From Deltaproteobacteria bacterium (lineage in GTDB: Bacteria; Desulfobacterota; Desulfobulbia; Desulfobulbales; Desulfobulbaceae), in assembly GCA_024280455.1 (NCBI GenBank), contig JAJRQC010000113.1, positions 1 to 34,997 of the forward strand: 34,997 nucleotides of DNA, given 5' to 3'. A model generated the notes under the pieces. That model saw nothing but the letters and a program-made list of their open reading frames with translations, was not told where the DNA came from and did not search any database. A program made the position numbers and the translations under genes. Of the stretch, positions 3,717 through 25,440 are shown one piece after another; position 1 is the stretch's first letter; each line of letters starts with the position of its first letter.

Positions 3717-4784
3717 ATGGAAACCGCCACACTCACACCTGAGCCGGAAAGAGTTACAAAAAATGTTGAAGATCCGGAACAGACACAACCCAAAACAATA
3801 AAGCTGGCTGAATTTCTGGGTGAATGGGGAGATATTTTAAAATTCCAGGTCATCCGAAATATGGATCCGGTCTATTCGCCGAAAGACGAAGATGATTGGG
3901 ACAGAGAGGCCAGAGAAAAACTGAAACAACTTATCCGTCCGCCATTTGAATCACAGACCCGGCGAGGGATTCTGCCGGTGGCCCGGTCTTTTTATAAGGA
4001 AGATAACAAGGCCGCCTTTCTGGTTGGCGAAATGGGGAGCGGGAAGACCTTCATGGGGCTTGCGGTAGCTCATCTTATTCCCAAACCAGGTAAAAGAATC
4101 CTGATCCAATGCCCAGGTCATCTGGTGCAGAAATGGATACGGGAAGCAGAAGAAACCATACCCGGCTGCACCTGCTTTAATCTGAACGATAAAAGCATGG
4201 AACAGCTCCTTGCCCACAAACTCCATTTGACCCGGCCAATCGGCACGGAGATATGGGTTATCGGCAAGGAACGGGCAAAACTTCATTTCCAGCGCAAACG
4301 GCAGCTTGTTATTCGCCGTGGCGCTGAATGCTGTCCCGAATGCGGCAGAGCGGTCGAATGCTCTGAAACCGACAAGGCTCCCGGCTGTGAACATTGCGGA
4401 GCCAGGATGTGGGCTGCAGACAGGGATAAAGTCCGGCGCTATGCCAAGGCCGAGTTCATCAAACGGTTTTTTCCGAAAAACTTCTTTGACCTCCTCATTC
4501 TTGACGAGGTGCATGAACTTAAAGGTGGCGGCACTGCCCAGGGCCAGGCAATGAGCTGTTTGATTGCCCGGTCGAAAAAGGTGCTGGCATTGACTGGAAC
4601 CCTCATGGGGGGATATGGGCGCGATTTATTTTATCTGCTCTGGCGAATGTTTCCCCGTTTGATGAAGGCGGCAGGCTTTGAATATGGCCGCACTCTGCAG
4701 TTTGCTGAACGCTACGGTGTTGTCCAGCGTACCTATGACAGTAAAGATGTTGGTGTCAGTCTGAACATTGCCAGTATCCATTGA
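3717..4784 (+). CDS. SNF2/DEAD-like helicase, N-terminal part only (truncated)
   Basis: The 355-residue frame has Walker A GEMGSGKTF at about residues 102-110, a motif Ia-like segment RILIQCPGHLVQKW, an inserted zinc ribbon (CPECGRAVEC ... CEHCGARM, about 204-230), Walker B/DEVHEL at about 263-268 and a motif III-like LALTGTLMGG at about 292-301. The second RecA domain with motifs IV-VI is missing. Complete members of such helicases are roughly twice this length. The frame stops at 4784, exactly where an unrelated DUF932 reading frame begins, so the 3' half has probably been lost by a deletion. ATG 3717 is preceded by GGGAGG. It is probably non-functional as a helicase. Confidence 0.75.
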   Translation: METATLTPEPERVTKNVEDPEQTQPKTIKLAEFLGEWGDILKFQVIRNMDPVYSPKDEDDWDREAREKLKQLIRPPFESQTRRGILPVARSFYKEDNKAAFLVGEMGSGKTFMGLAVAHLIPKPGKRILIQCPGHLVQKWIREAEETIPGCTCFNLNDKSMEQLLAHKLHLTRPIGTEIWVIGKERAKLHFQRKRQLVIRRGAECCPECGRAVECSETDKAPGCEHCGARMWAADRDKVRRYAKAEFIKRFFPKNFFDLLILDEVHELKGGGTAQGQAMSCLIARSKKVLALTGTLMGGYGRDLFYLLWRMFPRLMKAAGFEYGRTLQFAERYGVVQRTYDSKDVGVSLNIASIH

Positions 4785-8134: not shown

Positions 8135-11100
8135 ATGAAATACGGAGACCTAATCCAGTTTGATCCCATCGAGTCAGTTGTCCAGCTGCGCGATGCTGAT
8201 CATGCCTCTGCTGCCCAGCAACTGGTCAGTACCTATGTTATTTCCGATGAAATGGCAGACAGGCTGATCTCGCTTGTAATCCCACAACTCCAGTTTGAAC
8301 AACCTATGGACAATAAAGGGCTGCTGGTTGTGGGTAACTATGGCACAGGTAAATCACATTTGATGTCTGTAATCTCCACCATTGCAGAGGATGTTTCATC
8401 ACTGGATGTCATGGCCCATGCCGGAGTAGCTGAGGCTGCAAAACAAATCGCCGGTCGCTTCAAGGTTATTCGTACCGAGATCGGGGCAACAACCATGTCG
8501 CTGCGTGATATCCTTGTTGCAGAACTGGAGGAAAATCTGGAAAAATTCGGTGTCGAGTATGTTTTTCCTGAGGCAGATACCATTTCCAGCCATAAGCGGG
8601 CCTTTGAAGACATGATGGGCAAATTTCAGGATGTGTTCCCTGAGCAAGGCCTCTTGCTCGTTGTAGATGAACTCCTTGACTATCTCCGCACCCGTAAAGA
8701 TCAGGAACTTATCCTGGATCTTAATTTTTTGCGTGAGATTGGAGAAGTATGCAAAGATCTTAATTTTCGCTTTATCTCAGGCGTTCAGGAGGCAATTTTT
8801 GACAGTCCTCGCTTTGCCTTTGTCGCTGACAGTATCCGCCGGGTAAAAGATCGTTTTGAGCAAGTCCTGATAGCCCGCAATGATGTTAAATTTGTTGTTG
8901 CCCAGCGTTTACTTAAAAAGAGCCCTGAGCAGCAGGCGCAAATAAGGGAATACCTGACAGACTTTGCCAAATTTTATTCCCATATGAATGAACGGATGGA
9001 TGAATTTGTCAGTCTGTTTCCCATCCATCCTGATTACATTGACACCTTTGAACGGGTTACGGTTGTTGAAAAGAGAGAAATTTTAAAAACCCTGTCAATG
9101 GCCATGAAGCGTAAACTTGACGAAGAAGTCCCAGCGGACAAACCGGGACTGATCGCCTATGATTCCTACTGGAACACGCTGCGGCAAAATGCATCTTTCA
9201 GATCAATTCCCGAAATCAGAGACGTTATAGAGTGCAGCCAGGTTCTTGAGTCCCGTATTGAAAGCGCCATAGCCAGACCACAGTACAAAGATATGGCCCT
9301 GCGGCTGATCCATGCCCTGTCCATTCATCGTCTGACCACCGGGGATATTTACTCAGCAATGGGGGCAACTCCGGAAGAATTACGGGATGAACTCTGTCTT
9401 TTTGAACCAATGATCACGGACCTGGGAAGCGATGAACCTGAAAAAGATCTCCAGACCCATGTGGAAACGGTTTTGCGCGAAATCCATCGGACTGTCAGTG
9501 GTCAATTCATTTCCTCCAATCCGGACAACCGGCAATATTACCTGGATCTCAAAAAAACTGACGATTTTGACGCCCTGATCGAAAACAAGGCAGAAACGCT
9601 GGATGACAGCCAGCTTGACCGGTTTTACTATGAAGCCCTTCGCCGGGTAATGGAATGCCAGGATACCACCTACGTTACCGGCTACAAAATATGGCAGCAT
9701 GAACTGGTCTGGCAGGAGCACAAGGCTGCCCGCAGTGGGTATCTCTTTTTTGGTTCGCCGGATGAACGCTCAACAGCAGCACCGCAAAGAGATTTTTATC
9801 TCTATTTTATTCAGGTGTACGATTCCAGCCCCAAGCTGAAACGGTATATCAATGAGAAAAATCAGGATGAAGTTTTCCTGCAGCTCAGCGGCATGGATGA
9901 TGAATTCCAGGACAGTTTAAAATATTATGCTGCAGCCCTGGATCTTGCATCCGTCTCATCCGGCCATGCCAAATCCACCTATGAAAGCAAGGCCAATACT
10001 TTCCTGCGCAAGCTGGTAGGCTGGCTGCAGAAAAATATGACCACAGCCTTTGAGCTTACCTATCAGGGCCGGACCAAATCCATGACAGAGTGGGTCAAAG
10101 GAAAATCAATACGTGATATCTCTGGAATTGCCTCAAATGAAACTATAAATTTCCGGGATATGATCAACACGGTTGCCGGTATCTGTCTGGCTCCCAGGTT
10201 TGAAAACCAGGCCCCCGAATACCCTTATTTTTCCGTTTTGGTTACCGGTCGCAACCGGGAACAGGCAGCCTTTGATGCCTTAAGGGCAATTGGTGGGCAA
10301 AACCGGACCAAGCAGGCCACTGCTGTCCTTGATGGACTGGAATTACTTGATGTGGATAAGATTGATCCCTATAAATCAAAATATGCCGGCTTCCTTCTTG
10401 ACTTGGTCAAACAAAAAGGTCATGGCCAGGTCGTGGGGCGGAGTGAAGTGTTTCAGGACGATCACGGCCTTGAATACATGAATCCAGGGCTCTTCCGAAT
10501 TGAACCTGAGTGGACAGTGGTGCTGCTGGCAGCCTTGGTCTATTCCGGCGATATTGTCCTGGCCATTGTCGGGAAAAAATTTGATGCGACCAATCTTCAA
10601 CAGCTGGCTTCCACCTCTATTGACGAGTTGATCCATTTTAAACATATGGAACAACCAAAGGATTGGAATCTGCCAGCCTTAAAGGCCATGTTTGAGCTTC
10701 TTGGTTTACCTCCCGGCAAGGCACAGCTCGTAACCCAGTCAAAAGATGATGCGGTTCAGGACATGCAGGACAGAATTTTAAAAATCGTAAAACGTCTTGT
10801 CATGGCCGGGCAGTTATTACGCGAGGGCGTTTCTTTCTGGGGTGTTGATCTTCTGGCAGCCTCAAACCTTGCGGGTCACCGGGAAGAGCTTGAAAAGGCT
10901 AAATCCTTTTTTGAATCTCTCCAGGCCTATTCCACCCCTGGAAAATTAAAAAATTTCCGATATTCGGCTGACGAGGTCCGAAGCTATGAACCTGCCATTC
11001 AAACACTTGACAACCTGAACAAAATTCGGAACTTTGCCACCGAGCATGGTGGAACTGCTTCCTGGTTATCCATGGCTGAGGCAAACCTGCCGTCAGATCA

Positions 11101-11884
11101 TGCCTGGATCGACCGAATGACAACCGCCAGAAAAGATATTCTTGATTCTTTGGGGGCATCACTTTCCAAAGTGATGGCCGGTTCAAGGGAAATCTCATCC
11201 AGGTTACAGGAGCTGAAAAAAGAATATATCAAAATTTATCTTGGCCTGCATAGCAAAGCCAGGCTGGGCATTAATGACGATAAACGCAAGGCAGCGCTGC
11301 TGAATGACGCAAGGCTTACCACCCTGCAAAAACTTGCTACTGTAAAAATTATGCCCAAGCAACAGCTCACGGATTTTCAAAATCAGCTGGCAAGTTTACA
11401 GAGCTGTTTTTCATTGACCAAACAAGACCTTGAGAATTCACCCATTTGTCCCCATTGCGGTTTTCGCCCTGCAACGGAACTCTCCACCACAGCGGCGGTG
11501 GGCTCCCAAATGATAGAGCAGATGGATGACAAACTCGATACTCTGCTTGAAAACTGGACAAAAACAATTTTGGAGAACCTTGAAGATCCCGTTACCCAGG
11601 CCAATATGAATCTGCTCAAAGCTGACGAGCAGGCAACACTGGAAGGTTTCATGAAAAGCAAAACCCTTCCCGATCCCATGAGCACGGATTTTGTCAATGC
11701 CCTGCAGGAAGTACTTTCCGGTCTTGTCAAAGTCTCCATAAAATTTGCCGACCTGCAAAAGACCATTGCCAATGGCGGTGGCCCTGCCACTCCGGATGAA
11801 TTGAAAAAAAGATTCGTTGACTATATTGATAACCTCACCCGTGGCAAAGATCAGGCAAAAGTAAGGATAGTTTTTGGTTCGTAG
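8135..11884 (+). CDS. brxC: BrxC/PglY-family large ATPase of type 3 BREX
   Basis: This 1249-residue protein has an N-terminal AAA-like ATPase: Walker [12 protein letters not shown] at about residues 65-75 and Walker [13 protein letters not shown] at about 173-184. A long helical region follows, and a CPHCGFRP metal-binding pair sits near residue 1105. Size and motifs match BrxC/PglY (DUF6079-type), an essential BREX component thought to act on DNA or in complex with PglX/PglZ. Lysine 73 is the expected ATP-binding residue. The gene sits between brxF and, after insertions, pglXI. Its last codons and stop (TTT GGT TCG TAG) lie in the first units of the heptanucleotide repeat, so the native C-terminus may have been altered by that element. 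Confidence 0.93.
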
Positions 11885-11924
11885 TTCATGGTTTGTGGTT
11901 TCTGGTTCGTAGTTCTTGGTTGGG
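11869..11924 (+). repeat. Heptanucleotide repeat, left arm (8 units of RGTTNNT type)
   Basis: Eight contiguous 7-base units fit RGTTNN(T/G): starting at 11869 they are AGTTTTT, GGTTCGT, AGTTCAT, GGTTTGT, GGTTTCT, GGTTCGT, AGTTCTT and GGTTGGG. The brxC stop codon lies in units 2-3. The complementary arm is at 12336-12376 on the far side of the S23-like gene, so the gene sits inside an imperfect long inverted repeat. Confidence 0.9.
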
Positions 11925-11929
11925 GTAAA

Positions 11930-12319
11930 ATGGCGCAGATAGAAAGATTTGAGGATATTCAGGGGTGGCAGAAGGCTCGGGAACTGACTAAAGAAATTTA
12001 CCGGATTTCAAACCAGGGCGAATTTGCTAAAGATTTTGGTCTTAGAGATCAAATACGTCGGGCTTCAGTATCAATTATGTCCAACATTGCCGAAGGGTTT
12101 GGTCGAGGAGGAAATAAAGAGCTCATTCAATTTCTTTCAATGGCTGGAGCTTCAGCTTCAGAGGTACAAGCCCAGCTCTATGTTGCCACGGATGTTGGCT
12201 ATATAACAAAAGAACAATTTCAACAATTATTTAACCTGGCACAATCAACAGGGAAACTGATTGGTGGCTTTATACGTTATTTACAGAACACCGAACATAA
12301 AGGAGTTAAATTCAAGTGA
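11930..12319 (+). CDS. Four-helix-bundle protein, S23 / 23S rRNA intervening-sequence family
   Basis: This 129-residue protein (MAQIERFEDIQGWQKARELT...) has the hallmark W-x-x-A-x-x-L opening, the RDQIRRASVSIMSNIAEGF motif and the C-terminal helix of the S23/IVP four-helix-bundle family. Relatives are encoded in intervening sequences of 23S rRNA in bacteria such as Leptospira and Coxiella and also occur as stand-alone genes. Their function is not settled; nucleic-acid binding is suspected. ATG 11930 is chosen because the upstream extension (VCGFWFVVLGWGK) is just translated repeat. The gene is enclosed by heptanucleotide inverted repeats and interrupts brxC and the AlbA_2 gene, which suggests that repeat arms plus gene form one inserted unit. 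Confidence 0.92.
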   Translation: MAQIERFEDIQGWQKARELTKEIYRISNQGEFAKDFGLRDQIRRASVSIMSNIAEGFGRGGNKELIQFLSMAGASASEVQAQLYVATDVGYITKEQFQQLFNLAQSTGKLIGGFIRYLQNTEHKGVKFK

Positions 12320-12335
12320 GCCAGCAAAATTATCC

Positions 12336-12376
12336 AACTCCAACTAAGAACCATAAACTACAAACCACAAACCAAA
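12336..12376 (+). repeat. Heptanucleotide repeat, right arm (6 units of AACY type)
   Basis: AAC trinucleotides occur at 12336, 12342, 12349, 12356, 12363 and 12370, that is at 7-base steps after the first. The sequence is the reverse-complement pattern of the left arm at 11869-11924. It ends six bases before the AlbA_2 ATG and leaves that gene with no recognisable Shine-Dalgarno. Confidence 0.9.
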
Positions 12377-12382
12377 AGCTGC

Positions 12383-13894
12383 ATGAATGTGAATGAAAAA
12401 CAAATACAGGATCTGATCCGTGAAGGAGAAGGAATAACCACGGAGTTCAAAACCTGCCGAAACCAGATCAACCGGGATGTATATGAAACGGTTTGTGCTT
12501 TTCTCAATCGTCATGGTGGGACTCTCCTGCTCGGTATAAAGGATTCTGGTGAAGTCCAGGGGGTAGACCATGACGCAATCCAGCAAATAAAAAAGGATTT
12601 CGTAACAGCCATTAATAATCCTCAGAAGCTGACCCCGGCTACCTACCTTTCCGTGGAGAAGATAGAAATAAACGGAAAAACACTTCTCTATATTTATGTG
12701 CCTGAAAGTTCTCAGGTGCATCGTTGTAATGGCCGCATTTATGACCGCAATGAAGATGGTGATTTTGATATTACCGATCATACTGTTCAGGTTGCCAGAC
12801 TCTATCAGCGCAAAGATGCCTCTTTTAGCGAAAATAAAATCTACCCGTGGATTCAGGTTGCTGATCTGCGGGCTGATTTAATTGAAAAATGCCGCAATTA
12901 TGTCCGAATCAAGTCAAAAGACCATCCATGGGCAGGTATGGATGACCTGCAACTTCTGCAAAGTGCCGGGCTATATCTCGCAGATCCATTTACCAAAGAA
13001 TCAGGAGTTACTCTGGCCGGAACAATGTTGTTTGCCCCGGATCAGTTAATTCTTCGGGTCTGTCCTGCTCACCGCACAGACCTGATCCTGCGAAAAGTGA
13101 ATGTGGATCGCTATGACGACCGTGATCTGGTCCGAACAAATCTCATTGATAGTTACGATCGTATCCTGGCCTTTATCAAAAAGCATCTGCCCGACCCCTT
13201 TTACCTGGAAGGCATTGAACGAAGAAGTCTGCGTGGTGCTATTTTTCGGGAAGTAGCCTCCAACATGCTTATTCATCGTGAGTATAGCAGCGGCATTCCG
13301 GCCCGTCTCATTATCGAATACGGCAAGGTGACAACCTACAATGCCAATCGTCCCCATGGCTTTGGTGCGCTCAACCCGGACAATTTTGCTCCCTATCCCA
13401 AAAACCCGGTTATCGGCGCTTTTTTTCGTGAAATAGACCGGGCCGATGAGCTTGGCTCTGGTATGCGTAAGATGATGCTGTATGGAAAACAATATGGCGG
13501 GGCTGATCCGCAGCTCATTGAAGGAGATGTATTTCAGATGATTGTTGCAGTGCCGGAGTTTGGTGAAAATCCGGCCAATATTCCTGAAACGATTATCGGG
13601 GATGATTCCGGGTCACCATCAAGTCCGCACCAAGTTACTCCCGAAGTTGGCACTAAGTTGGCACTAAGTCGGCACCAAGTTAAAATACTGCGTAATTGCA
13701 GGCAAGACAGCACATTATTGGAGTTGATTGCGATTACAGGCCGATCGGATCGCACCAAGTTCAGGAACCAGGTTCTCAATGAATTGCTGGACATTGGCCT
13801 TATTGAAATGACCATTCCGGATAAACCTCGCAGCAGCAAACAAAAATATCGAATCACTCGAAAAGGCGAAGAACTATTGGAGAGCAGCACATGA
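12383..13894 (+). CDS. AlbA_2 (Schlafen-like) / RecG-related putative transcriptional regulator
   Basis: This 503-residue protein begins with an AlbA_2 domain: GEGITTEFKTCRNQINRDVYETV (about 14-36) and FLNRHGGTLLLGIKDSGEVQGV (about 39-60). The middle resembles the ATPase-like part of COG2865 proteins (FREVASNMLIHREYSSG...DELGSGMRKMMLYGK), and the C-terminus is a winged helix (LLELIAITGRSDRTKFRNQVLNELLDIG). Such proteins are often encoded in defence islands, including BREX loci, as accessory or regulatory factors; the exact action is unknown. The stop overlaps pglXI by ATGA, so it is translationally coupled to the methylase. Tandem 11-base repeats code the linker before the winged helix. ATG 12383 has no SD because the repeat element abuts it, so the true start may have been displaced. 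Confidence 0.85.
   Translation: MNVNEKQIQDLIREGEGITTEFKTCRNQINRDVYETVCAFLNRHGGTLLLGIKDSGEVQGVDHDAIQQIKKDFVTAINNPQKLTPATYLSVEKIEINGKTLLYIYVPESSQVHRCNGRIYDRNEDGDFDITDHTVQVARLYQRKDASFSENKIYPWIQVADLRADLIEKCRNYVRIKSKDHPWAGMDDLQLLQSAGLYLADPFTKESGVTLAGTMLFAPDQLILRVCPAHRTDLILRKVNVDRYDDRDLVRTNLIDSYDRILAFIKKHLPDPFYLEGIERRSLRGAIFREVASNMLIHREYSSGIPARLIIEYGKVTTYNANRPHGFGALNPDNFAPYPKNPVIGAFFREIDRADELGSGMRKMMLYGKQYGGADPQLIEGDVFQMIVAVPEFGENPANIPETIIGDDSGSPSSPHQVTPEVGTKLALSRHQVKILRNCRQDSTLLELIAITGRSDRTKFRNQVLNELLDIGLIEMTIPDKPRSSKQKYRITRKGEELLESST
13622..13681 (+). repeat. Coding tandem repeat of about 11 bases in the AlbA_2 gene
   Basis: AGTTGGCACTA occurs twice in tandem (13645-13655, 13656-13666) and is followed by AGTCGGCACCA (13667-13677). 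Upstream, AGTCCGCACCA (13622-13632) and a 12-base degenerate unit continue the array. It encodes the QV...GTKLALSRHQV linker before the C-terminal winged helix. The 11-base unit is not a multiple of three, so copy-number change would shift the frame. Confidence 0.75.
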
Positions 13895-16773
13895 GCGCAA
13901 AACCACAAAAGCTATTTAAAGATCCATCTTCTTCTGCTTTATCCGGCCCGGTTACCTGCCTGGGGATGGAGTTTGAGAGTGATGAAGCCCGGCGGGAATA
14001 TTTCACCGAAGAGTTACGCAAAAAATTACAGGAGCCTGAATTCCGGGCCATCGAGGGTTTTCCCATCGGGGAGGATGAGGACATTCTTACCCTGTCTGAT
14101 CCGCCTTATTATACGGCCTGTCCTAATCCATGGATTGAGGATTTTATTGAGCAATGGGAAAAGGATAAACCGACACCCGAGAATGATGAACCTTACCACC
14201 GGGAGCCTTTTGCCGCTGATGTGAAGGAAGGCAAGAATGACCCCATCTATAATGCCCATTCCTATCATACCAAAGTGCCGCACAAGGCCATTATGCGCTA
14301 TATCCTCCATTATACAGAACCTGGGGATATAGTTTTTGATGGTTTTTGCGGAACAGGAATGACCGGGGTTGCAGCCCAGATGTGTGGGGATCGGGCAGTG
14401 GTTGAATCGTTGGGTTACAAGGTTGATGATGATGGAGTTATATACCAGCTTGATGAAAATGTAGCGGTTCCTGGTTCAGAGTTTCTGGTTCCTGGTTCCA
14501 GCAACCAACCAGAAACCAGAAACCAAGAACCTCAAACCAAAAAGAAATGGGTGAAGTTTTCCAGACTTGGTGTACGAAGGGCTGTTCTCAATGACCTGTC
14601 TCCGGCGGCTACGTTTATTGCTTACAATTATAATACGCCGGTTGATGTGGCTGAATTTGAAGCCGAGGCCAAGCGCATTCTGGCTGAGGTGGAAAAAGAA
14701 TGTGACTGGATGTATGAGACTAAGGATAAATCCGGTCGTGTTGGTAAGATAAATTATACTGTTTGGTCTGATGTCTTTGTTTGTCCTGAGTGTGCAGGAG
14801 AAGTTGTTTTTTGGGATGCAGCAGTGGATAAAGATATAGGTAAAGTGATGGATAAATTTCCTTGTCCGCATTGCCAGGCTGAGCTTACTAAAAGAAGTAT
14901 AGAGCGGGCGTGGATAACAACTTACGATCCCGCAATTGAGGAGACAAAACGTTTAGCAAAACAAATACCTGTTATCATTGATTTCTCTATAGGCAAAAAA
15001 CGCGCAAGAAAAACGCCAGATGATCAAGATATTAGTATAATTTCAAAAATTAATAATATAGATATTCCATATTGGCACCCAACAAACATTATTCCTTTAG
15101 GAGTAAAAACAACAGATCCATTTCGTGTAGGAGTGCAAAATGTTCATCATTTTTTCACAAATCGAAACCTAATAACAGCATCAACGTTTACTGAAAAAAT
15201 ATCAAACAGCAGGTATCTGTCTATTTTAACGGGAGTAATGTCAGATATATCAAAAATGGCAAGAGTTAAAGTTGGTTATTATTTTAAAGGTGGTGGAGGA
15301 CCTTTTATTCCAGGACTATCAGGAACATTATACATTCCAAGCCTGTCTGTAGAAAAAAGGCCCACATTTGCGATGAAAAATCGTATTTCAACTTTCAGTA
15401 GATCATTTTCTCGCAGTAAATTTAAAGTATTTCCATTAATTAATACATCATCAAGTTCTTCATTGTTTGAAGTACCATCAGACAGTTTAGATTATTTGTT
15501 TCTTGATCCACCCTTTGGTTCAAATATTATGTACTCTGAACTAAATATCTTGTGGGAGTCATGGTTAAAAATAACTACCAATAACAAAGAGGAAGCAATA
15601 GAAAACAGAATACAACACAAAGATAGCAATGAATATAGAAAGATAATGACTCTTTGTTTCGGAGAGGCTTATCGAATTCTCAAGCCAGGAAAATGGATGA
15701 CTGTTGAGTTTTCTAACACAAAAGCATCCGTATGGAACAACATTCAAACATCATTGAATGATGCAGGTTTTATCGTTGCTAACATTTCAGCTCTCGACAA
15801 GAAACAAGGTAGTTTTAATGCGGTAACTAATACCACATCGGTAAAGCAAGATCTCGTAATCTCCGCCTACAAACCAAATGGTGGTTTTGAAGAACGCTTT
15901 CTCTCCGAAGCCTCCAGTGAAGAAGGAGTATGGTATTTTGTCCGCACTCACTTAAAATATCTTCCTATCACTAAACGCCAGGGCAGCCAGCTTGTCGCCA
16001 TCCCGGAACGAGATCCCCGCATCCTCTTTGATCAGATGGTGGCCTATTATGTCCGCAAAGGCTACCCGGTTCCTCTGTCCAGCCAGGAATTCCAGATCGG
16101 CCTAACTCAACGCTTTGCAGAGCGGGATGGCATGGTTTTCCTGCCTGAACAGGTGGCAGAGTATGACCGAAAAAAAATGACAGCCAAAGAACTGGTTCAG
16201 GCCTCTCTTTTTGTCTCAGACGAGGCATCTGCCATCCAGTGGCTGCGCCAAAAGCTAAAAACTAAACCGCAGACATTCTCTGACATCAACCCGCAGTTCA
16301 TGCAGGAAATCAGCGGTTGGAAAAAAGTAGAAAAACCCCTGGAACTCTCCACCCTGCTCAAACAGAATTTCCTCTGCTATGACGGCAAGGAAAAAGTACC
16401 GGAGCAAATCCACGCCTACCTCTCCACCAACTGGAAGGATATGCGAAATCTTCCCAAAGAAGACCCAACCCTCAAAGCCAAGGCCAAAGATCGCTGGTAT
16501 GTGCCGGACCCCAACAAGGCCGGTGACCTGGAAAAACTCAGGGAACGCGACCTGCTCAAAGAGTTTGAAACCTACAAAACCGTCAAAAAATTCAAACGCA
16601 ACGACCGCTTCCGCCTCGAAGCAGTCCGGGCCGGTTTCAAAAACGCCTGGCAGGCCAGAGACTACAAAACCATCATCACCATTGCCGAAAAAATACCACC
16701 CAAAATCCTCGAAGAAGACCCCAAACTCCTCATGTGGTACGATCAGGCAGTAACCAGAATGGGAGATGAGTAA
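13891..16773 (+). CDS. pglX: PglXI-type adenine-specific DNA methyltransferase of type 3 BREX
   Basis: This 960-residue methylase has DPPYYTACPNPW at about residue 69, the SAM-binding motif I FDGFCGTGMTG near 148-158, a zinc-ribbon pair CPEC...CPHC at about 299-332 and a second (D)PPF motif, FLDPPFGSN, near 537-545. This layout matches the type 3 BREX methylase (PglXI), which should mark host DNA at non-palindromic sites as self. It overlaps the AlbA_2 gene by ATGA and ietA by TAATG. Two oddities stand out. Residues about 192-217 are encoded by an inserted heptanucleotide palindrome, and DNA from about 14740 to 15850 is much more AT-rich than its flanks, suggesting an acquired middle segment. 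It is otherwise intact and open. Confidence 0.92.
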   Translation: MSAKPQKLFKDPSSSALSGPVTCLGMEFESDEARREYFTEELRKKLQEPEFRAIEGFPIGEDEDILTLSDPPYYTACPNPWIEDFIEQWEKDKPTPENDEPYHREPFAADVKEGKNDPIYNAHSYHTKVPHKAIMRYILHYTEPGDIVFDGFCGTGMTGVAAQMCGDRAVVESLGYKVDDDGVIYQLDENVAVPGSEFLVPGSSNQPETRNQEPQTKKKWVKFSRLGVRRAVLNDLSPAATFIAYNYNTPVDVAEFEAEAKRILAEVEKECDWMYETKDKSGRVGKINYTVWSDVFVCPECAGEVVFWDAAVDKDIGKVMDKFPCPHCQAELTKRSIERAWITTYDPAIEETKRLAKQIPVIIDFSIGKKRARKTPDDQDISIISKINNIDIPYWHPTNIIPLGVKTTDPFRVGVQNVHHFFTNRNLITASTFTEKISNSRYLSILTGVMSDISKMARVKVGYYFKGGGGPFIPGLSGTLYIPSLSVEKRPTFAMKNRISTFSRSFSRSKFKVFPLINTSSSSSLFEVPSDSLDYLFLDPPFGSNIMYSELNILWESWLKITTNNKEEAIENRIQHKDSNEYRKIMTLCFGEAYRILKPGKWMTVEFSNTKASVWNNIQTSLNDAGFIVANISALDKKQGSFNAVTNTTSVKQDLVISAYKPNGGFEERFLSEASSEEGVWYFVRTHLKYLPITKRQGSQLVAIPERDPRILFDQMVAYYVRKGYPVPLSSQEFQIGLTQRFAERDGMVFLPEQVAEYDRKKMTAKELVQASLFVSDEASAIQWLRQKLKTKPQTFSDINPQFMQEISGWKKVEKPLELSTLLKQNFLCYDGKEKVPEQIHAYLSTNWKDMRNLPKEDPTLKAKAKDRWYVPDPNKAGDLEKLRERDLLKEFETYKTVKKFKRNDRFRLEAVRAGFKNAWQARDYKTIITIAEKIPPKILEEDPKLLMWYDQAVTRMGDE
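14466..14541 (+). repeat. Heptanucleotide palindrome inside pglX (in frame)
   Basis: The left arm has five units, GGTTCCT, GGTTCAG, AGTTTCT, GGTTCCT and GGTTCCA (14466-14500). The right arm has AACC at 14507, 14514, 14521, 14528 and 14535, exactly seven apart. Only a few bases separate the arms. It translates to VPGSEFLVPGSSNQPETRNQ and more, a low-complexity loop unlike the rest of the protein. It is the same repeat type as at 11869-12376 but without a gene. Confidence 0.9.
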
Positions 16774-17770
16774 TGGCCAGAGCTGACCTGTTAATTCGTC
16801 TTGTCCAATCAGGAATACGCCATGATAAGACGAAATTCAGAAAGTTGTTGAGGCGATTATTGCCGAAGAGCGGTCTAAGCAACACAAGGTGCTGGCCGAC
16901 AAACTCGAAGCAATACTGAGCAATGCTACACCAATTGATCGCAGCATATCCAATGGTATCGCGAGGCCGGATCAGCGCATAGGCAACTTACTCCATGAAA
17001 TTACGCCGGATCGGAAGCTGACGGATCTTATATTACCACCGGAGATAGTTGAAATTTGTCAGGGACTCGTGCAAGAGCACCATCGGGTTGACTTGTTGCG
17101 CTCTTACAATTTAGAGCCCCGTAATCGTCTGTTGCTTATCGGGCCTCCGGGGAATGGAAAGACATCACTTGCAGAGGCTATTGCTGATGCACTGATGGTT
17201 CCTTTGCTGGTTGTTCGATATGAGAGTGTAGTCGGAACATATTTAGGAGAAACAGCTGTCCGATTAAGAAAAATCTTTGAATACGCATCTACCAGAAAAT
17301 GTGTTCTGTTTTTTGATGAATTTGAAACTTTGGGGAAGGAGAGAGGTGATACTCACGAAACAGGAGAAATAAAAAGGGTTGTCAGCTCGTTGCTTCTCCA
17401 GATAGATACATTACCGAGCCATGTAGTAGTCATCGGTGCAACAAATCATGCAGAGCTGTTGGATCGTGCTGTCTGGCGACGATTTCAAGTTCGTATGCGT
17501 CTCCCCGTACCGACGCGAGCTCGTTTGACAGAATGGTTTGAAAAATTTGAACGTCGTATAAATGTATCATTGAATTATTCTCCATTAACCTTGGCAAAAA
17601 AACTATATGGGGCAAGTTTTGCAGAGGTTGAAGAGTTTGGTATCACCGTTTTTCGTCAATATGTTCTTGAACAACCAGGTTCAGACATGAAATCTGTCAT
17701 TTCCCGTACCCTCAAGCATTGGGCAGCCAGGTCTGTAAAAGTAGCCCAGCAGGGTGGAGGAAATGAATAA
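16773..17770 (+). CDS. ietA: IetA-like AAA ATPase, probable one-base frameshift near the 5' end
   Basis: The main open frame (GTG 16889 onward, 293 aa) is an AAA ATPase with Walker A IGPPGNGKTS, Walker B CVLFFDEFETLG and a sensor-like VVIGATNHAELLDRA. It is followed by a subtilisin gene, the pairing of IetA/IetS, first described as a plasmid-stabilising toxin-antitoxin on the Ti plasmid and later reported as phage defence. The natural start is almost certainly ATG 16773 (MARADLLIRLVQSG), which overlaps the pglX stop as TAATG. That frame runs to GIRHDKTKFRK and should continue as VVEAIIAEERSKQHKVLADK, which is one base out of phase. A single A missing in the AAA run at 16841-16843 explains it. 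It could be a real mutation or an assembly error. Confidence 0.8.
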
Positions 17771-20433
17771 TGGCAGACCGACCATTGTTATTGTTCCCTG
17801 CTCCTGAACCGGCATCAAAATCAAAGTTAGGAGGTGGAGGTGGGAATGTTCACAAGCCATCTCATGGGACACAGGTGCATCGTGTCGCGCCGCAACTTCA
17901 ACAACTGCAAAAAGCTTTAAACAATAAAGCAATTGCTGTCCAAAGCTCCTCGTCCGGTATTGAGCCTGAACTTGCATTAGTGATTGAGACTATTGGCAGC
18001 GTTGATGGATTTTTAAGCGCGGTTAATAAGATAGATGGCCTTGAATGGCTTGGAGAGTATGAACAGGATGAAATAATTCCTGATGAATATTTTTACGATG
18101 TAAAACATGAAGAAAAAAAACTTAGCGGCAGATTGTTCTTTTTATTTACCAATCAAGCCGCTATGGCGCAGCTCTTAAACCTGTGGGAAAAATTTGAACA
18201 AAATCCAGGCAAAAAATTCGGGGAGATATTTGATTATGGATATGCGAGCATTGGCCGTCTTTTTGAGCAAGTCAAGACAATCCGACTTTGGGATGTTCAA
18301 GACCGTTTATTAGAAACAGGTGTACTTGATGCTTGGCGTGAAGATCTGGAACATGATGGCGAAAGGCCGATTCGTTTTGAGGTAGAGCTTTGGTTTCGAA
18401 ACAGTCATGAAGTGAGGCAGACTCAGCAGAAATATATTGCCAACCTGGTACAGCAGTACGAAGGAAATGTGCTGAGCCAATGTATCCTCGAAGACATTTC
18501 GTATCATGCCTTATTAGCTGAATTACCGGCAAATGCGATACAGGACCTGCTTGATGACCAGACTACCGAACTGGTTAAATGCGATAATATCATGTTCTTC
18601 CGACCTGTGGGACAAATATCAGTTGGAGAACAACCTGATGAAGATACCACGGAGATCGAGACGTTTCAGGAATCCCCCCTACCAGCAGGCAACCCTGTAA
18701 TTGCCGTCTTTGACGGGCTTCCCCTGGCTAACCATGAACTATTGGCGGAGAGGCTCATTATTGATGATCCCGATGATTGGTCTTCCGATTATTCCGCATC
18801 TGAGCGAATACATGGGACAACCATGTCGGCCTTGGTGGTGCACGGTGACCTGAATGATTCTGGCCATACGTTAGAGACCCCTGTTTACATTCGCCCTATC
18901 ATGAAACCTGACCCAAACGATTGGCATAATCCTCGTAGAGAATGTATTCCAAGAGACGTTTTAGCAGTTGATCTTATACACAGGGCTGTAAAAAGAATTT
19001 TAGAAGGTGATGGAGACGAAGAGGCGATAGCACCGACAGTTAAAATTATTAACCTGTCTATCGGGGATCCGAGCCGACAATTTGATGTTGTCATGAGTCC
19101 GCTGGCAAGATTGCTGGATTGGTTAAGTTCGAAGTACAATGTATTGTTTTTTGTCAGTACAGGTAATCAATTAGCCCCTGTTTCCTTAGGAATAAATCGT
19201 TCAGAGTTTGAAGCTCTTTCAGCCGATGATTTAGAAAAAATCATCATCGAAGCTTTGCATGAAGATGCCAGAAACCGCCGTCTACTCTCTCCAGCTGAAA
19301 GTATCAACGCTATAACAGTTGGTGCAGTTCATCTTGACACATCTGAAGTTGTTCATACCGCAAACCGATTTGATCCTTTTGAAAAGATTCTCCCCAGTCC
19401 TGTTTCTTCCGTCGGCAGTGGATATCGCAGGTCTGTAAAACCTGATATCGTATTTCCTGGAGGGAAGCTCTGGTATGAGAAACCGTTTTTAGACAGCCAA
19501 CCCGTATTATTAACAGTAACAAATACAACAGTTGCACCAGGAAATAAAGTTGCCTATCCCGGAAAAGTGGAAGGTGAACTTGCCGCAATCGCATATACCC
19601 GCGGTACAAGTAATTCGACGGCATTAATCAGTAGAGCCGCTGGATTGTGTCATGATTCTCTAGTTCAAATAATTAATGAACAAGCTCCTCCTGAAATTGA
19701 TGCTGATACATATATTGCCACTTTACTCAAAGCAATGGTGGTTCATGGTTGTTCCTGGAATGATTTCGGACAAGAGCTTTCTGATATTTTGAGGCATTCA
19801 AAAGTTGGTGAGCAGGTTGAGCATTTTGCAAGAAGCATATATTCACATAACTCGGCTATAACAAACGAGATCAATAGACAATATAACAAGATTTTGCATC
19901 GTTGGTTGGGTTACGGAATGCCTGAAATTGATCGGGTTCTTGATTGTACTGAACAGCGAGCCTCACTCCTTGGTTTTGGCCAGTTACCTGATGGTGAAGC
20001 CCACATTTTCCAATTACCTTTACCCCCTTCCCTTGCTTCACGTCCTGAATGGAGAAGGTTAACCGTCACTCTTGCGTGGCTTTCGCCGGTTTCTCCCAAT
20101 ACCCAAAAATATAGAACAGCCAGTCTGTGGTTTGAAATCAATAACAGCATAGCTTCCAGCAGAACAGATGTGGATTATCATGCTGTTCGCAGAGGAACCG
20201 TGCAACATGAAGTTTTTGAAGGTGACAGCGCGGAACCATTTGTTGATGGAGATACTGTAGAGATAAAAGTAAACTGCCGGTCAGATGCGGCAAAAATTGC
20301 CGAGCCAATTGGCTACGGACTGGTAGTTTCGTTGGAAGTTAGCGATGGTGTTGATATTGCTGTTTACGATGAAATCAAGACTCGAATTGCTCCTCTTGTA
20401 CAAATTCAACAAGCCACAGGCGGGAATGAGTAA
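17770..20433 (+). CDS. ietS: IetS-like S8 (subtilisin) serine peptidase
   Basis: This 887-residue protein has an S8 peptidase domain in its middle: the Asp motif VIAVFDGLPLANH near residue 314, the His motif ERIHGTTMSALVVHG near 346 and the Ser motif YTRGTSNSTALISRAAG near 613. The three expected catalytic residues are present. The flanking regions are unannotated N- and C-terminal extensions, and there is no signal peptide, so the protein should be cytoplasmic. Start ATG 17770 overlaps the ietA stop as TAATG. In the Ti-plasmid system the protease is the toxin and the ATPase the antitoxin, so an intact ietS beside a frameshifted ietA is notable. Confidence 0.88.
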   Translation: MADRPLLLFPAPEPASKSKLGGGGGNVHKPSHGTQVHRVAPQLQQLQKALNNKAIAVQSSSSGIEPELALVIETIGSVDGFLSAVNKIDGLEWLGEYEQDEIIPDEYFYDVKHEEKKLSGRLFFLFTNQAAMAQLLNLWEKFEQNPGKKFGEIFDYGYASIGRLFEQVKTIRLWDVQDRLLETGVLDAWREDLEHDGERPIRFEVELWFRNSHEVRQTQQKYIANLVQQYEGNVLSQCILEDISYHALLAELPANAIQDLLDDQTTELVKCDNIMFFRPVGQISVGEQPDEDTTEIETFQESPLPAGNPVIAVFDGLPLANHELLAERLIIDDPDDWSSDYSASERIHGTTMSALVVHGDLNDSGHTLETPVYIRPIMKPDPNDWHNPRRECIPRDVLAVDLIHRAVKRILEGDGDEEAIAPTVKIINLSIGDPSRQFDVVMSPLARLLDWLSSKYNVLFFVSTGNQLAPVSLGINRSEFEALSADDLEKIIIEALHEDARNRRLLSPAESINAITVGAVHLDTSEVVHTANRFDPFEKILPSPVSSVGSGYRRSVKPDIVFPGGKLWYEKPFLDSQPVLLTVTNTTVAPGNKVAYPGKVEGELAAIAYTRGTSNSTALISRAAGLCHDSLVQIINEQAPPEIDADTYIATLLKAMVVHGCSWNDFGQELSDILRHSKVGEQVEHFARSIYSHNSAITNEINRQYNKILHRWLGYGMPEIDRVLDCTEQRASLLGFGQLPDGEAHIFQLPLPPSLASRPEWRRLTVTLAWLSPVSPNTQKYRTASLWFEINNSIASSRTDVDYHAVRRGTVQHEVFEGDSAEPFVDGDTVEIKVNCRSDAAKIAEPIGYGLVVSLEVSDGVDIAVYDEIKTRIAPLVQIQQATGGNE

Positions 20434-20844: not shown

Positions 20845-22509
20845 ATGAATATAAATGCAAGTATCGTCGATCAGAGAATTGTCGGAATTATCGAAGATCA
20901 TGGGGATTGGCTGCCGGTCGGAAATGATATAAATAAGAAAAAATCAGCGGCCTTTGTTTTGCTCTGCATGTCTACCTCCTTGGAATTTACTCTGGAAGAG
21001 GCAGCTGAATTACTTACTGAAGGCGGCAATGATGCCGGGGTTGATGGCCTGCATATTGGTGAAGTGGATGACGGTGAATTTGTCGTTACCCTGTTTCAGG
21101 GAAAGTATAAGGTCAAAGATTTAAGTGGCTCTGCCAATTTCCCGGAAAATGGTGTCCAGAAGGCGGTAAACACTGTTCAGGTGTTGTTTGATCCTGCCCG
21201 TAAAGTTGCACTTAATGAAAAAATTGCACCTAAAATCGAGGAGATACGGTCTTTGATTCGTGATGCATATATTCCCGTAGTGAGAGTAATACTCTGCAAT
21301 AACGGAGAACCATGGACTGAACAGGCGGACAATTGGATAAGTGAAGCCAAAAATGACTTTGGGGAAAGCGTGCATTTTATTCATTTTAATCACAACTCCA
21401 TTGTTCAAATCCTCCAACGTAGCAAACAGGTAGATACCAATCTGATCCTTAATGGACAGGCAATTGTTGAAGATATGAATTTCATGCGCGTATTGGTTGG
21501 TCGCATTTCTGTTCAGGAAATTCAACGCCTCTTTAACGATCATGGCGACAACCTGTTGGAACGTAATATACGGCGTTATCTCGGCCTGCACACCAACCGC
21601 GTGAATAGAGGTATTCATGAAACACTTTCAGACCCGGCCAAATCAGACAAATTTTATTTCTTCAACAACGGTATCACCGTTGTCTGTGATAAATTTGATT
21701 ACAACGCCTTCCAAAAGAGCGATTATCAGATTCAAATAAAAAATATGCAGGTTATCAATGGCGGACAAACCTGTAAGACCATACAGCAGACACTTAACCA
21801 GGTTTTGCCTGGATTTGTCGGTGAATCTGCCTTTGTTATGATCCGTATCTATCAACTATCTGAAAATCAAAAAGATTTTGTCCGTGATATTACCTATGCC
21901 ACGAACAGCCAGAACCCTGTAGATCTCCGGGATCTGAGATCCAATGATGAGATACAGAAACAGCTTGAAATCGGCATACAAGACCTGGGGTACAGCTATA
22001 AACGCCAGCGCGAGGAAGGTGGTGGTGGTTCGTCGGTTATTACCAGTTCCATTGTGGCAGAAGCGACCCTTGCCATCTGGAGAGAAAAACCGCAACAGGC
22101 TAAATTTCGGCGCAAGGAACATTTTGGCAAATTATACACGACTATTTTCGATACAATCAATGCTGCGCAGGCGGTGCTGGCAGTGATGATATTTAGATAT
22201 GTGGAGAATGAACGGAAACGTCCTACGGCTGAAAATCCACCTGATTTTCTCCCTTATGCCTCACATTATCTTGCCATGTTGCTGGGCAGGCAATTGCTTG
22301 CCAGGCAAGAAATAACAGTAGATGATATTTCCCATCGAAATTTCCAGGAATTATTCACCGCGTTTGAGGAGAACAGAGAAAATTATTACCAGGAATCCAT
22401 AGATCAAGTTCAGCACGCTCTTCATACTTTTTATGGCCAGCGTGAAATTTCCCTGCAGCAACTCTCCGCCACATTCAGACGGGGAGACTTGATGGAAATG
22501 CTGGAATAA
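20845..22509 (+). CDS. AIPR-family abortive-infection protein
   Basis: This 554-residue protein matches the AIPR (abortive infection phage resistance) family. It has an N-terminal mixed domain with GGNDAGVDGLHI...VTLFQGKYK, reminiscent of a restriction-nuclease-like core (Asp then Q-x-K). The typical central block is RNIRRYLGLHTNRVNRGIHETL...KFYFFNNGITVVCDKF...MQVINGGQTCKTIQ. Such proteins are found with phage-defence and BREX loci, where they may degrade nucleic acid on infection. AGGAGA precedes ATG 20845. It sits between ietS and brxHII, directly after a small gene. It is full length and has no evident lesion. Confidence 0.9.
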   Translation: MNINASIVDQRIVGIIEDHGDWLPVGNDINKKKSAAFVLLCMSTSLEFTLEEAAELLTEGGNDAGVDGLHIGEVDDGEFVVTLFQGKYKVKDLSGSANFPENGVQKAVNTVQVLFDPARKVALNEKIAPKIEEIRSLIRDAYIPVVRVILCNNGEPWTEQADNWISEAKNDFGESVHFIHFNHNSIVQILQRSKQVDTNLILNGQAIVEDMNFMRVLVGRISVQEIQRLFNDHGDNLLERNIRRYLGLHTNRVNRGIHETLSDPAKSDKFYFFNNGITVVCDKFDYNAFQKSDYQIQIKNMQVINGGQTCKTIQQTLNQVLPGFVGESAFVMIRIYQLSENQKDFVRDITYATNSQNPVDLRDLRSNDEIQKQLEIGIQDLGYSYKRQREEGGGGSSVITSSIVAEATLAIWREKPQQAKFRRKEHFGKLYTTIFDTINAAQAVLAVMIFRYVENERKRPTAENPPDFLPYASHYLAMLLGRQLLARQEITVDDISHRNFQELFTAFEENRENYYQESIDQVQHALHTFYGQREISLQQLSATFRRGDLMEMLE

Positions 22510-22521
22510 GGTGATAGGTTA

Positions 22522-25440
22522 ATGTCGGATTCTTCAACGCAATGGCTCTACTCCACAATCCACAACTCACCCTGCAAGGTGATCGAAAAGCAGAGCTTAT
22601 GGGGCCAAACCATTTGCCGTATCTGGCTGCCGGGCAGTGATGCTGTTGTTAAAGTTCCGCAGAAATCTTTACAATCCCTGTCCCTTGATCTGCAGCCGGA
22701 CATTGAGGCAGACAGGGTTGTTTATATTGCAGCGGCAGCAAAGGTGGCCGAAGCCCTTGAAGGAACGTCTTCCAGTGACGGGCATGTACTGCTGGCGCCC
22801 ATGGAATCCAATGTTATTCCCTTGCCCCATCAGATTCATGCCTTGTCTCGGGCCATTTCCGGGGACAGGGTACGTTATCTGCTGGCCGATGAAGTGGGAC
22901 TTGGGAAGACCATTGAAGCCGGGCTTGTTATCCGGGAACTGAAACTTCGTGGGCTGGTACGCCGCATTCTGATCATTTCTCCCAAGGGGCTGGCAACGCA
23001 ATGGGTCGCTGAAATGCAGACCCATTTCAATGAATCGTTTCAGCTTGTTTTGCCAAGCGATTTTAAGACGCTCAACCGCCTGGGACCCTTTTCCGGACCT
23101 GAAACACATAACAACCCTCAATTTCAAGCAAATAATCCCTGGACATTTTTTGATCAGGTTATTGCTCCCCTTGACTCTGTAAAACCCCTTGTAAAACGCC
23201 GTGGCTGGAGCGACGAGCAGGTGGCGGAGTATAACAGAAACCGGTTTGAAAACCTTATCACCGCCGGATGGGATCTGGTTATCGTTGATGAGGCCCATCG
23301 CCTGGGCGGCAGCACGGATCAGGTCGCTCGTTTCAAGTTGGGGCAGGGCTTGGCTGAGGCTGCCCCTTTTCTTCTGCTTCTGACAGCCACACCACACCAG
23401 GGAAAGACAGATGCCTTTCATCGGATTTTGACTCTGCTCGATGCGGAAGCCTTTCCTGACGAGGCCAGTGTTTCCAGGTCACGGGTTGCTCCCTACGTTA
23501 TTCGGACAGAAAAACGAAAATCAATTACTGCAGAAGGCAAACCTCTTTTTAAGCCGCGACGTACACAGATGGCACCGATTCGCTGGGAGGATCGTCATTT
23601 TCAGCAGGAATTGCTCTATGAGGCTGTGACTGATTATGTCCGCGAGGGATATAATCAGGCCATGCAGGAGAAACAGCAGCATTTCGGATTTCTGATGATC
23701 CTCATGCAGAGACTGGTCGTTTCCAGCACCAGAGCTATTCGGACAACCCTTGAACGCCGGTTAATGGTTTTACGTTCCGAGTTTCAGGTTCATAGTTCAA
23801 AGATCAGCAAACTTTCCAACAACCATGAACCAGAAACCATAAACCAGGAACTAATCCACGATATGGATGGCGAAGAATTGCTGGAAGAGCTGTTACAGCC
23901 CCATGTCCGTGCTCTGCGCAATGAAGCCCGCCACGTTGAGACCCTGCTCACCGCCGCCGTACAAAGCGAGCGGGAGTGTGCTGATGCCAAAGCCGAGGCG
24001 CTGATAGAGTGGATTTATAGACTCCAGGCGGAAGAGAATGATCCTGATCTGAAGATATTGATCTTCACAGAGTTTGTGCAGACTCAACGGATGCTGTACG
24101 ATTTTCTGGTTGATCGCTCCATATCCGTTGTCTGCCTGAACGGCTCCATGGACATGGAAGAACGTCAGCTTGCCCAGGATACCTTTCGTGACAAAACCCG
24201 TATTTTGTTGTCCACAGATGCCGGTGGTGAAGGCCTGAATCTCCAGTTTTTCCATGTTGTCATTAACTATGATATGCCATGGAATCCTATGCGGATAGAA
24301 CAGCGGATAGGTCGTGTAGATCGTATTGGTCAGCCCAAAACGGTTCGTGCCATTAACTTCGTGTTTGAAGATTCTGTTGAGTTTCGGGTACGAGAGGTAC
24401 TGGAGCAGAAGCTGTCTGTCATTTTTGAAGAGTTTGGTATTGATAAAACCGGTGACGTTTTGGATTCCGCCCAGGCTGGAGAGATTTTCGAAGATGTGTT
24501 TATAGATGCTTTGCTTGACCCGGATTCTATGGAACAAGCTGTGGATCAAACTGTTTCACGTATTCGCGGCGAAATTGAAGAAGTACGTGAAAACTCGGCG
24601 ATTTATGGCTTGTCCGAAGAGTTGGATGTGCATGATGCGGCCATGTTGCGCACCCATCCTCTACCACATTGGGTGGAACGGATGACCACTGCCTATATTA
24701 AGTCCCATGGCGGCCAGGCAATAAAAAAGAAATATTGGTGGGATTTACGCTGGCCGAATGGGGATATTGATAAAAAGCAGGTTTTCCTTGTCGGTGATGC
24801 TGAACGATACCGGGGAACGGAACTCCTGAACCTGGAAAACAGTCGTGTCTGCGGCCTTGCTTTGCGTCTTCCCCAGATAGCAAAAGGACAGCCGTTTCTT
24901 CACGTTTATATTGAAGGCTTACCAGCAGAATTAAAAGGGCATTGGGGCTTATTTGAAATACGGCTGCAGACGGAGAATGTCAGCCGGTCCAGGCTGCTGA
25001 GGATTCCTCTTTTACGACGGAAATTTCTCCCTGTCTTCGTGTCTGATGCAGGGAAGATTTTTCAATCCACAGCCAGGCATATATGGGAGTCTTTATATTC
25101 TTCCGAGCTTAAATCTGCCGAGCATCCGCATCAGGTTCAGCATTCTTCCGTGTTTGATGATTTGATGAAAATCGCAGAACAATCAGGTCAGGAGTTGTTT
25201 GAAAGCCTGCAGGGGGAACACAATGAAGCCATTTCGGCGGAGGAGGAACGGGCCCAATATTTTTTTACCGTCAGAGAAAAAGCCATAGAAAGGGTTGGCC
25301 TGGCGGAAGTTCGTAATTATCGGCTGGCAAAACTGGCAACAGAGAAAAAAGAGTGGCAGCAGGAAATTGAGTCTGCACGTCAGATTATCCCGGAAATCAG
25401 ACCACTTCTTCTACTGGGTATCATGGGTGGTGGCGTATGA
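22522..25440 (+). CDS. brxHII: BrxHII-type SNF2-like helicase of type 3 BREX
   Basis: This 972-residue superfamily 2 helicase has Walker A LADEVGLGKTIEAG at about residues 120-133, DEAH (VIVDEAHRLGG) near 252-262, motif III LLTATPHQGKT near 288-298, motif V STDAGGEGLNLQF and motif VI QRIGRVDRIGQ near 594-604. This is the RapA/DrmD-like organisation of the type 3 BREX helicase. It overlaps pglZ by ATGA, matching the conserved brxHII-pglZ-brxA order. Residues about 418-445 (VLRSEFQVHSSKISKLSNNH and on) are encoded by an inserted heptanucleotide palindrome between the two RecA domains, yet the frame is preserved. Confidence 0.92.
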   Translation: MSDSSTQWLYSTIHNSPCKVIEKQSLWGQTICRIWLPGSDAVVKVPQKSLQSLSLDLQPDIEADRVVYIAAAAKVAEALEGTSSSDGHVLLAPMESNVIPLPHQIHALSRAISGDRVRYLLADEVGLGKTIEAGLVIRELKLRGLVRRILIISPKGLATQWVAEMQTHFNESFQLVLPSDFKTLNRLGPFSGPETHNNPQFQANNPWTFFDQVIAPLDSVKPLVKRRGWSDEQVAEYNRNRFENLITAGWDLVIVDEAHRLGGSTDQVARFKLGQGLAEAAPFLLLLTATPHQGKTDAFHRILTLLDAEAFPDEASVSRSRVAPYVIRTEKRKSITAEGKPLFKPRRTQMAPIRWEDRHFQQELLYEAVTDYVREGYNQAMQEKQQHFGFLMILMQRLVVSSTRAIRTTLERRLMVLRSEFQVHSSKISKLSNNHEPETINQELIHDMDGEELLEELLQPHVRALRNEARHVETLLTAAVQSERECADAKAEALIEWIYRLQAEENDPDLKILIFTEFVQTQRMLYDFLVDRSISVVCLNGSMDMEERQLAQDTFRDKTRILLSTDAGGEGLNLQFFHVVINYDMPWNPMRIEQRIGRVDRIGQPKTVRAINFVFEDSVEFRVREVLEQKLSVIFEEFGIDKTGDVLDSAQAGEIFEDVFIDALLDPDSMEQAVDQTVSRIRGEIEEVRENSAIYGLSEELDVHDAAMLRTHPLPHWVERMTTAYIKSHGGQAIKKKYWWDLRWPNGDIDKKQVFLVGDAERYRGTELLNLENSRVCGLALRLPQIAKGQPFLHVYIEGLPAELKGHWGLFEIRLQTENVSRSRLLRIPLLRRKFLPVFVSDAGKIFQSTARHIWESLYSSELKSAEHPHQVQHSSVFDDLMKIAEQSGQELFESLQGEHNEAISAEEERAQYFFTVREKAIERVGLAEVRNYRLAKLATEKKEWQQEIESARQIIPEIRPLLLLGIMGGGV
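23773..23853 (+). repeat. Heptanucleotide palindrome inside brxHII (in frame)
   Basis: Left units are CGTTCCG, AGTTTCA, GGTTCAT and AGTTCAA (23773-23800). A 20-base spacer follows, and then AAC occurs at 23821, 23828, 23835, 23842 and 23849, all seven apart. The arms are partly complementary. It is the third copy of the repeat type seen around the S23-like gene and in pglX. Confidence 0.85.

Follow-up and report, generated by a model that had tools for sequence, protein, structure and literature searches.

An in-frame inverted heptamer array in brxHII is probably a miniature relative of an IVP-gene element in the same BREX operon

The inverted heptamer array that is read through in frame in the brxHII gene of a type III BREX operon is probably a miniature, ORF-less and locally spreading relative of an element built around an IVP gene (23S rRNA intervening-sequence protein). 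A complete member of this element family has an IVP gene in the middle and an array of 7-nt units on either side of it; the two arrays are inverted relative to each other, and their units are specific to the lineage. A full element of this kind lies 11 kb upstream of the brxHII array, between brxC and the next gene.

Results

Features of the operon and its arrays

The features relevant to this analysis, given in the coordinates of the window (the whole stretch of 34,997 nt that was analysed), are the following:

8135..11884, + strand: brxC, which reaches the left arm of the IVP element with its 3' end (PADLOC BrxC, 2013 bits; ORF end at 11884)
11870..11926, + strand: left heptamer arm of the IVP element; the last brxC codons run into it
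11930..12319, + strand: IVP gene, encoding a four-helix-bundle protein (PF05635, TIGR02436)
12337..12377, + strand: right heptamer arm of the IVP element
13891..16773, + strand: pglX (PglXI), the gene hosting the second array (PADLOC PglXI, 1447 bits)
14466..14543, + strand: inverted heptamer array inside pglX, ORF-less and in frame (pattern, fold z -5.7); left arm about 14467-14497, right arm about 14507-14543
22522..25440, + strand: brxHII, the gene hosting the array under study (PADLOC BrxHI/BrxHII, 1469 bits)
23767..23854, + strand: inverted heptamer array in the inter-RecA linker of brxHII, ORF-less and in frame (sequence, shuffles, genome pattern, fold); left arm about 23767-23801, right arm about 23820-23854

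PADLOC placed BrxC, PglXI, BrxHII and PglZ in one operon, which is thus of BREX type III. Schlafen/AlbA-like, IetS-like and AIPR/AbiU-like genes are embedded among the BREX genes (12383-13894, 17770-20433, 20845-22509).

In the brxHII array, five 7-nt units that begin with GTT are followed by a short core and by five 7-nt units that begin with AAC. The left units read, from 23767, GTTTTAC, GTTCCGA, GTTTCAG, GTTCATA and GTTCaaa, and the right ones, from 23821, AACCATG, AACCAGA, AACCATA, AACCAGG and AACtaat. With about 88 nt and no IVP ORF, the array is at most an ORF-less relative of the IVP element. Its in-frame translation, ...RSEFQVHSSKISKLSNNHEPETINQE..., falls between the SNF2 domain (117-327) and the Helicase_C domain (492-603), in agreement with the first-pass annotation, which had described an in-frame heptanucleotide palindrome between the two RecA domains of the helicase. 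The RNA folding that it had proposed as a check revealed strong folds for the brxHII copy (z -3.7 on the + strand and -4.6 on the - strand) as well as for the pglX copy (z -5.7).

Arrays of the GTT type are restricted to the BREX operon and are very unlikely to be due to chance

We searched for hairpins with three GTT units on one side of a core and three AAC units on the other. In the window this pattern matched only at 14467-14530 and 23767-23837, and after dinucleotide shuffling of the window (300 shuffles) it matched nowhere. Across the 4.15-Mb genome it was found in pglX and brxHII only, its reversed control had no match, and runs of three GGTTNNT units were restricted to the three BREX loci. 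These genome-wide statements are based on pattern searches; a threshold-based hairpin detector misses degenerate arrays, including the two hairpins of the window, which were found by pattern. The absence of matches in the shuffles and in the rest of the genome led us to reject a chance origin, and the earlier view that the arrays exceed chance was upheld.

That we are dealing with chance, or with an ordinary conserved protein loop that happens to resemble repeats, is in our opinion extremely improbable. Array-free BrxHII orthologues do have a linker here that is about as long (28-41 residues), which would fit such a loop, but the sequence of the linker is unrelated between orthologues. Moreover, in the related operon of genome G345 this place is occupied by an independent array, made of another heptamer. 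As the array-free linkers are of this length and unrelated, the brxHII linker was replaced by the array rather than lengthened. A clean insertion, which had been expected to appear as a gap at residues 418-445 in homologues, was thus rejected; the array took the place of, or grew within, a variable linker. The pglX array is absent from the same site in 9 aligned orthologues, and the pglX copy is closer to a clean insertion than the brxHII copy. The first-pass annotation had named a lack of further copies in the genome, together with conservation of the loop in distant BrxHII proteins, as evidence against local spread. No further copies of the GTT type were found, and the orthologues have a linker, but of unrelated sequence.

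Arrays of other heptamer types do occur elsewhere in the genome. In contig C90 (L249), arrays of the AGCYNAT/GAGCCAN type were observed at 1846-1874, 2891-2914, 3269-3388 and 4513-4565; they are intergenic and belong to another gene cluster, and a family search of this contig revealed no IVP. In addition, a brxHII orthologue of another genome (G406; L124, about 1487-1501) is frameshifted exactly in the inter-RecA linker, without heptamers. An AlphaFold model of BrxHII, based on nine sequences, was discarded (mean pLDDT 49); it presented just a low-confidence loop (433-449) between helices.

A complete IVP element lies upstream in the same operon

The locus at 11870-12377 had been taken for a third empty copy of the repeat, but it turned out to be an element with an IVP gene. 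Its ORF is open from 11888, with an ATG at 11930, and is enclosed by complementary, pairable heptamer arms. The encoded protein matches PF05635 (E 1e-36) and the four helix bundle family TIGR02436, has the PDB relatives 2gsc and 2rld, and matches both Avd models weakly. We know of no established function of IVP proteins. The heptamer type is common to the IVP element, the pglX array and the brxHII array. The IVP gene is single-copy in its genome and is most likely the source of the ORF-less copies; it had been missed in the first-pass annotation. The idea of local spread voiced there gained support from the concentration of heptamer hairpins around IVP genes, with which they share their heptamer (see below).

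The element is located in the BREX operon and not in a 23S rRNA gene, and Rfam gave no match anywhere in the window. Neither a transposase nor a reverse transcriptase was found beside the IVP gene, and no template/variable repeat pair was recognised there; the 4 reverse transcriptase and 11 Y1_Tnp matches of the genome are all on other contigs. Viral contigs contained no IVP relative of the window's kind, and only distant helicases.

IVP genes of many phyla are flanked by complementary heptamer arrays

To the 80 closest relatives of the IVP in GTDB we added IVP genes that family searches retrieved from related genomes and from the class of the window, which resulted in 118 distinct IVP loci with enough flank, from many phyla and mostly from metagenome-assembled genomes (MAGs). 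Complementary flanks were found at 93 of the 118 loci, as compared with 14 of 353 mismatched (shuffled) pairs. A 7-nt periodicity was seen in 62 upstream and 75 downstream flanks, as compared with 13 of 216 control positions. The 7-nt period was dominant, periods 8 and 9 were in the minority, and periods 5 and 6 hardly ever occurred. Period-8 arrays flank the IVP gene at L040 and L066, and period-9 arrays at L051 and L073. Plasmids of Riemerella, Nostoc and Calothrix carry IVP genes with the same kind of borders.

The heptamer itself varies by lineage (e.g. GGTTYHT, GAGTTNC, AGTCCAC, GAGGACT, AGGGAAC). Resemblance between the arms of different loci is largely limited to IVP proteins that are more than about 60-70% identical, and since the two arms of one locus stay complementary while arms differ between loci, both arms change together. 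A fixed code linking IVP to heptamer was not supported, as heptamer type tracks IVP only above this identity. IVP genes are present in 131 of 258 genomes of one class, and the co-occurrence of hairpins with IVP at the level of whole genomes is weak (25/37 vs. 106/221).

Hairpins cluster around IVP genes and share the local heptamer

We compared 20 stretches, each of about 20 kb with an IVP gene at its centre, with 20 control stretches from seven of the same genomes. The density of hairpins per 100 kb was 20.1 within 0.3 kb of IVP genes, 6.9 at 0.3-1 kb, 7.6 at 1-3 kb, 3.4 at 3-6 kb and 1.4 at 6-12 kb, as compared with no hairpin in 400 kb of controls, which were unmatched for intergenic content and island status. 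One control stretch had a weak IVP match, without a hairpin. The 7-periodic segments decreased from 130 to 10 with distance from IVP genes, against 2.2 in the controls. One hairpin of period 9 was seen in the same stretches, and none of period 5, 6, 8 or 10. Arrays near an IVP gene matched the arms of the local IVP best, in comparison with eight random loci, in 60 of 94 cases, where 10.4 were expected. Around IVP genes outside BREX operons, arrays more than 300 nt from the gene reached 4.4 per 100 kb, as compared with 0.39 in random contigs (two genomes), and hairpins occur there in uvrC, manC and polysaccharide genes. The idea that coding arrays are specific to BREX was therefore dropped.

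These data bear on two explanations in which IVP has no active part. Arrays could arise in place, through polymerase slippage and fold-back template switching in tolerant linkers or intergenic DNA. The imprecise junctions and the replacement of the native linker would fit such an origin, as would the one-unit changes in unit number and the quick turnover of heptamer type. However, it would not account for separate loci near one IVP sharing a heptamer, as the three loci of this operon do, for the clustering of hairpins at IVP genes, or for the near lack of hairpins of other periods, and we regard it as unlikely. Alternatively, a Y1 transposase (IS200/RAYT-type) or another resident transposase might move the arrays in trans, which would then be REP-like elements or MITEs, with IVP as a passenger. 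Y1 transposases act on hairpins, and the genome does contain Y1_Tnp matches, but the heptamers are lineage-specific, no common end motif was seen, and the hairpins cluster near IVP genes, which makes this quite improbable.

Arrays recur in related BREX operons

The nearest IVPs, those of L007 (a Desulfocapsa MAG), L008, L009 (the gammaproteobacterium Thiohalocapsa) and L010, are all in type III BREX. About 20 arrays were found in BREX ORFs of related operons, nearly all of them in frame: in BrxHII (G345, with two, and G311), in BrxHII as given, in PglX (G345 and L008) and in BrxC (L007, G318, G441, G428, G424, G345, G218, L009 and L010). The PglX of BREX-1 carries arrays as well (G324 and G502). 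The BrxHII linker carries GGTTYHT units in the window and GRGTTSC units at the same site in G345, and three BrxC sites are each reused by several lineages with different heptamers. Five related BREX operons (L138, L139, L141, L144 and L148) had no arrays, and the array-laden BREX operons of G345, G318, G218 and G324 had no IVP in the sequence examined. Genome G424 has two type III BREX copies (L147 and L148), one with brxC arrays and a rearranged helicase and the other array-free. Along 6 kb of a BREX-1 operon of G324 (L328, 4072-9975), at least six AGTTRTC-type arrays were seen, and there was no IVP within that stretch.

Comparison of relatives revealed gain, loss and change of units. The IVP element is common to L007 and the window, with a left arm 36 nt longer in L007, and the ORF-less copies are not shared; in BrxC of L007, native sequence was replaced by an array. 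In the surroundings of the IVP gene, the plasmids pNe_5 and pC052_D of Nostoc are 88% identical; they differ in an IVP arm by exactly one 7-nt unit, and their common AGGCAGA hairpin family occupies different places. In these comparisons no target-site duplication was seen and the junctions were imprecise. The units of the window are degenerate, and a one-unit change was seen in an IVP arm elsewhere.

Could the arrays instead be a functional part of BREX, either as mRNA hairpins targeted by RNase III or IVP, or as frame-shifting switches, which would tune or phase-vary the defence genes, with IVP as a BREX accessory gene? Among 30 GTT-type hairpin loci found class-wide (one per genome), those in recognisable genes are in BREX genes only, of types III and I. 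The reuse of the same protein sites by different heptamers, the strong folding of the hairpins and the shift of frame that 7-nt units would cause point the same way. Nevertheless, we consider this unlikely, even if slightly less so than an origin in place, because IVPs outside BREX have hairpins in other genes, the five related BREX operons lack arrays, and nearly all sampled arrays are in frame. Moreover, as the units of the window are degenerate, slippage should be slow.

Discussion

The reading we prefer is that of a locally spreading relative of the IVP element. Two ORF-less hairpins with the heptamer type of the element would have settled in its operon, one in pglX and one in brxHII. Points against this reading are the array-laden BREX operons in which no IVP was seen, the weak co-occurrence of hairpins and IVP across genomes, the imprecise junctions, the replacement of native sequence in brxHII and in BrxC of L007, and the lack of a transposase or reverse transcriptase next to the IVP gene. 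As an Avd-like, pentameric four-helix-bundle protein, IVP may bind the repeat stem as RNA or single-stranded DNA and help to copy it to nearby sites with borrowed host enzymes, the candidates being a reverse transcriptase, a Y1 transposase or template switching during replication. Slippage would alter the number of units, and copies would be retained in flexible linkers of proteins, where they leave the reading frame intact. Avd of diversity-generating retroelements is a four-helix bundle homologous to IVP and is essential for retrohoming (PMC10053308); by analogy, binding of the stem by IVP and its hand-over to a host reverse transcriptase or to replication seem plausible. The window element differs from such retroelements in that no reverse transcriptase is adjacent to IVP and the repeats are heptamer arrays instead of a template/variable pair.

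The element also resembles, and departs from, several other known systems. In the 23S rRNA intervening sequence (IVS) of Coxiella burnetii, 3-4 heptamers (GACAGAT), whose number varies among strains, precede the S23p ORF, and the stem is cut by RNase III (PMC4990558). As in the IVS, the window element has an IVP ORF inside an inverted-repeat stem, but it is located in a protein-coding operon, both of its arms are heptamer arrays, and ORF-less relatives occur close to it. The palindromic elements of Rickettsia (RPE), like other in-frame MITEs, are short palindromic DNA in protein genes, tolerated in unstructured segments (PMC10969869; PARCEL, PMC2996958). The window arrays are likewise palindromic and read through in frame. 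In contrast, RPE are families of about 150 bp with conserved sequence, while the arrays here have a changing 7-nt unit, are linked to IVP and are locally clustered; as the heptamer differs by lineage, so does the encoded peptide, unlike the conserved peptide of RPE. A short inverted-repeat element beside a fuller, gene-bearing relative is also reminiscent of a MITE. Finally, lineage-specific heptamer families have been described in Geobacter (H4; PMC2700814), in Xanthomonas and Nostoc (G-rich repeats; PMC4692102), as TAACTGA repeats (PMC4679880) and in Beggiatoaceae. As far as the accessible portions of these sources go, they too are lineage-specific arrays of 7-nt units, sometimes inverted and sometimes intragenic, and, unlike the arrays here, these families are described there without a link to IVP genes. 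We found no description of that link in the open-access literature searched, a search outside which most subscription papers lie.

More broadly, and more tentatively, IVP genes across phyla may be the core of an undescribed class of mobile elements whose ends are inverted arrays of a fast-changing 7-nt unit, and whose IVP copies hairpins within about 10 kb, in frame into neighbouring genes. Such a class would bring together rRNA IVS elements, orphan IVP genes and many of the lineage-specific families of heptamer repeats. With IVP linked to heptamer arrays and local spread, the IVP family would have a role that can be tested, many scattered heptamer repeats would be accounted for, and IVS elements would be connected with Avd of diversity-generating retroelements. 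The way in which anti-phage BREX proteins gain new loops at recurrent sites would become apparent as well.

At three loci (L056, 4800-4922; L072, 3212-3305; L078, 4829-4924), arrays form the N-terminus of an ORF and encode a signal-peptide-like sequence, MKKLFVLGSWFLV..., so that the repeat may supply a leader.
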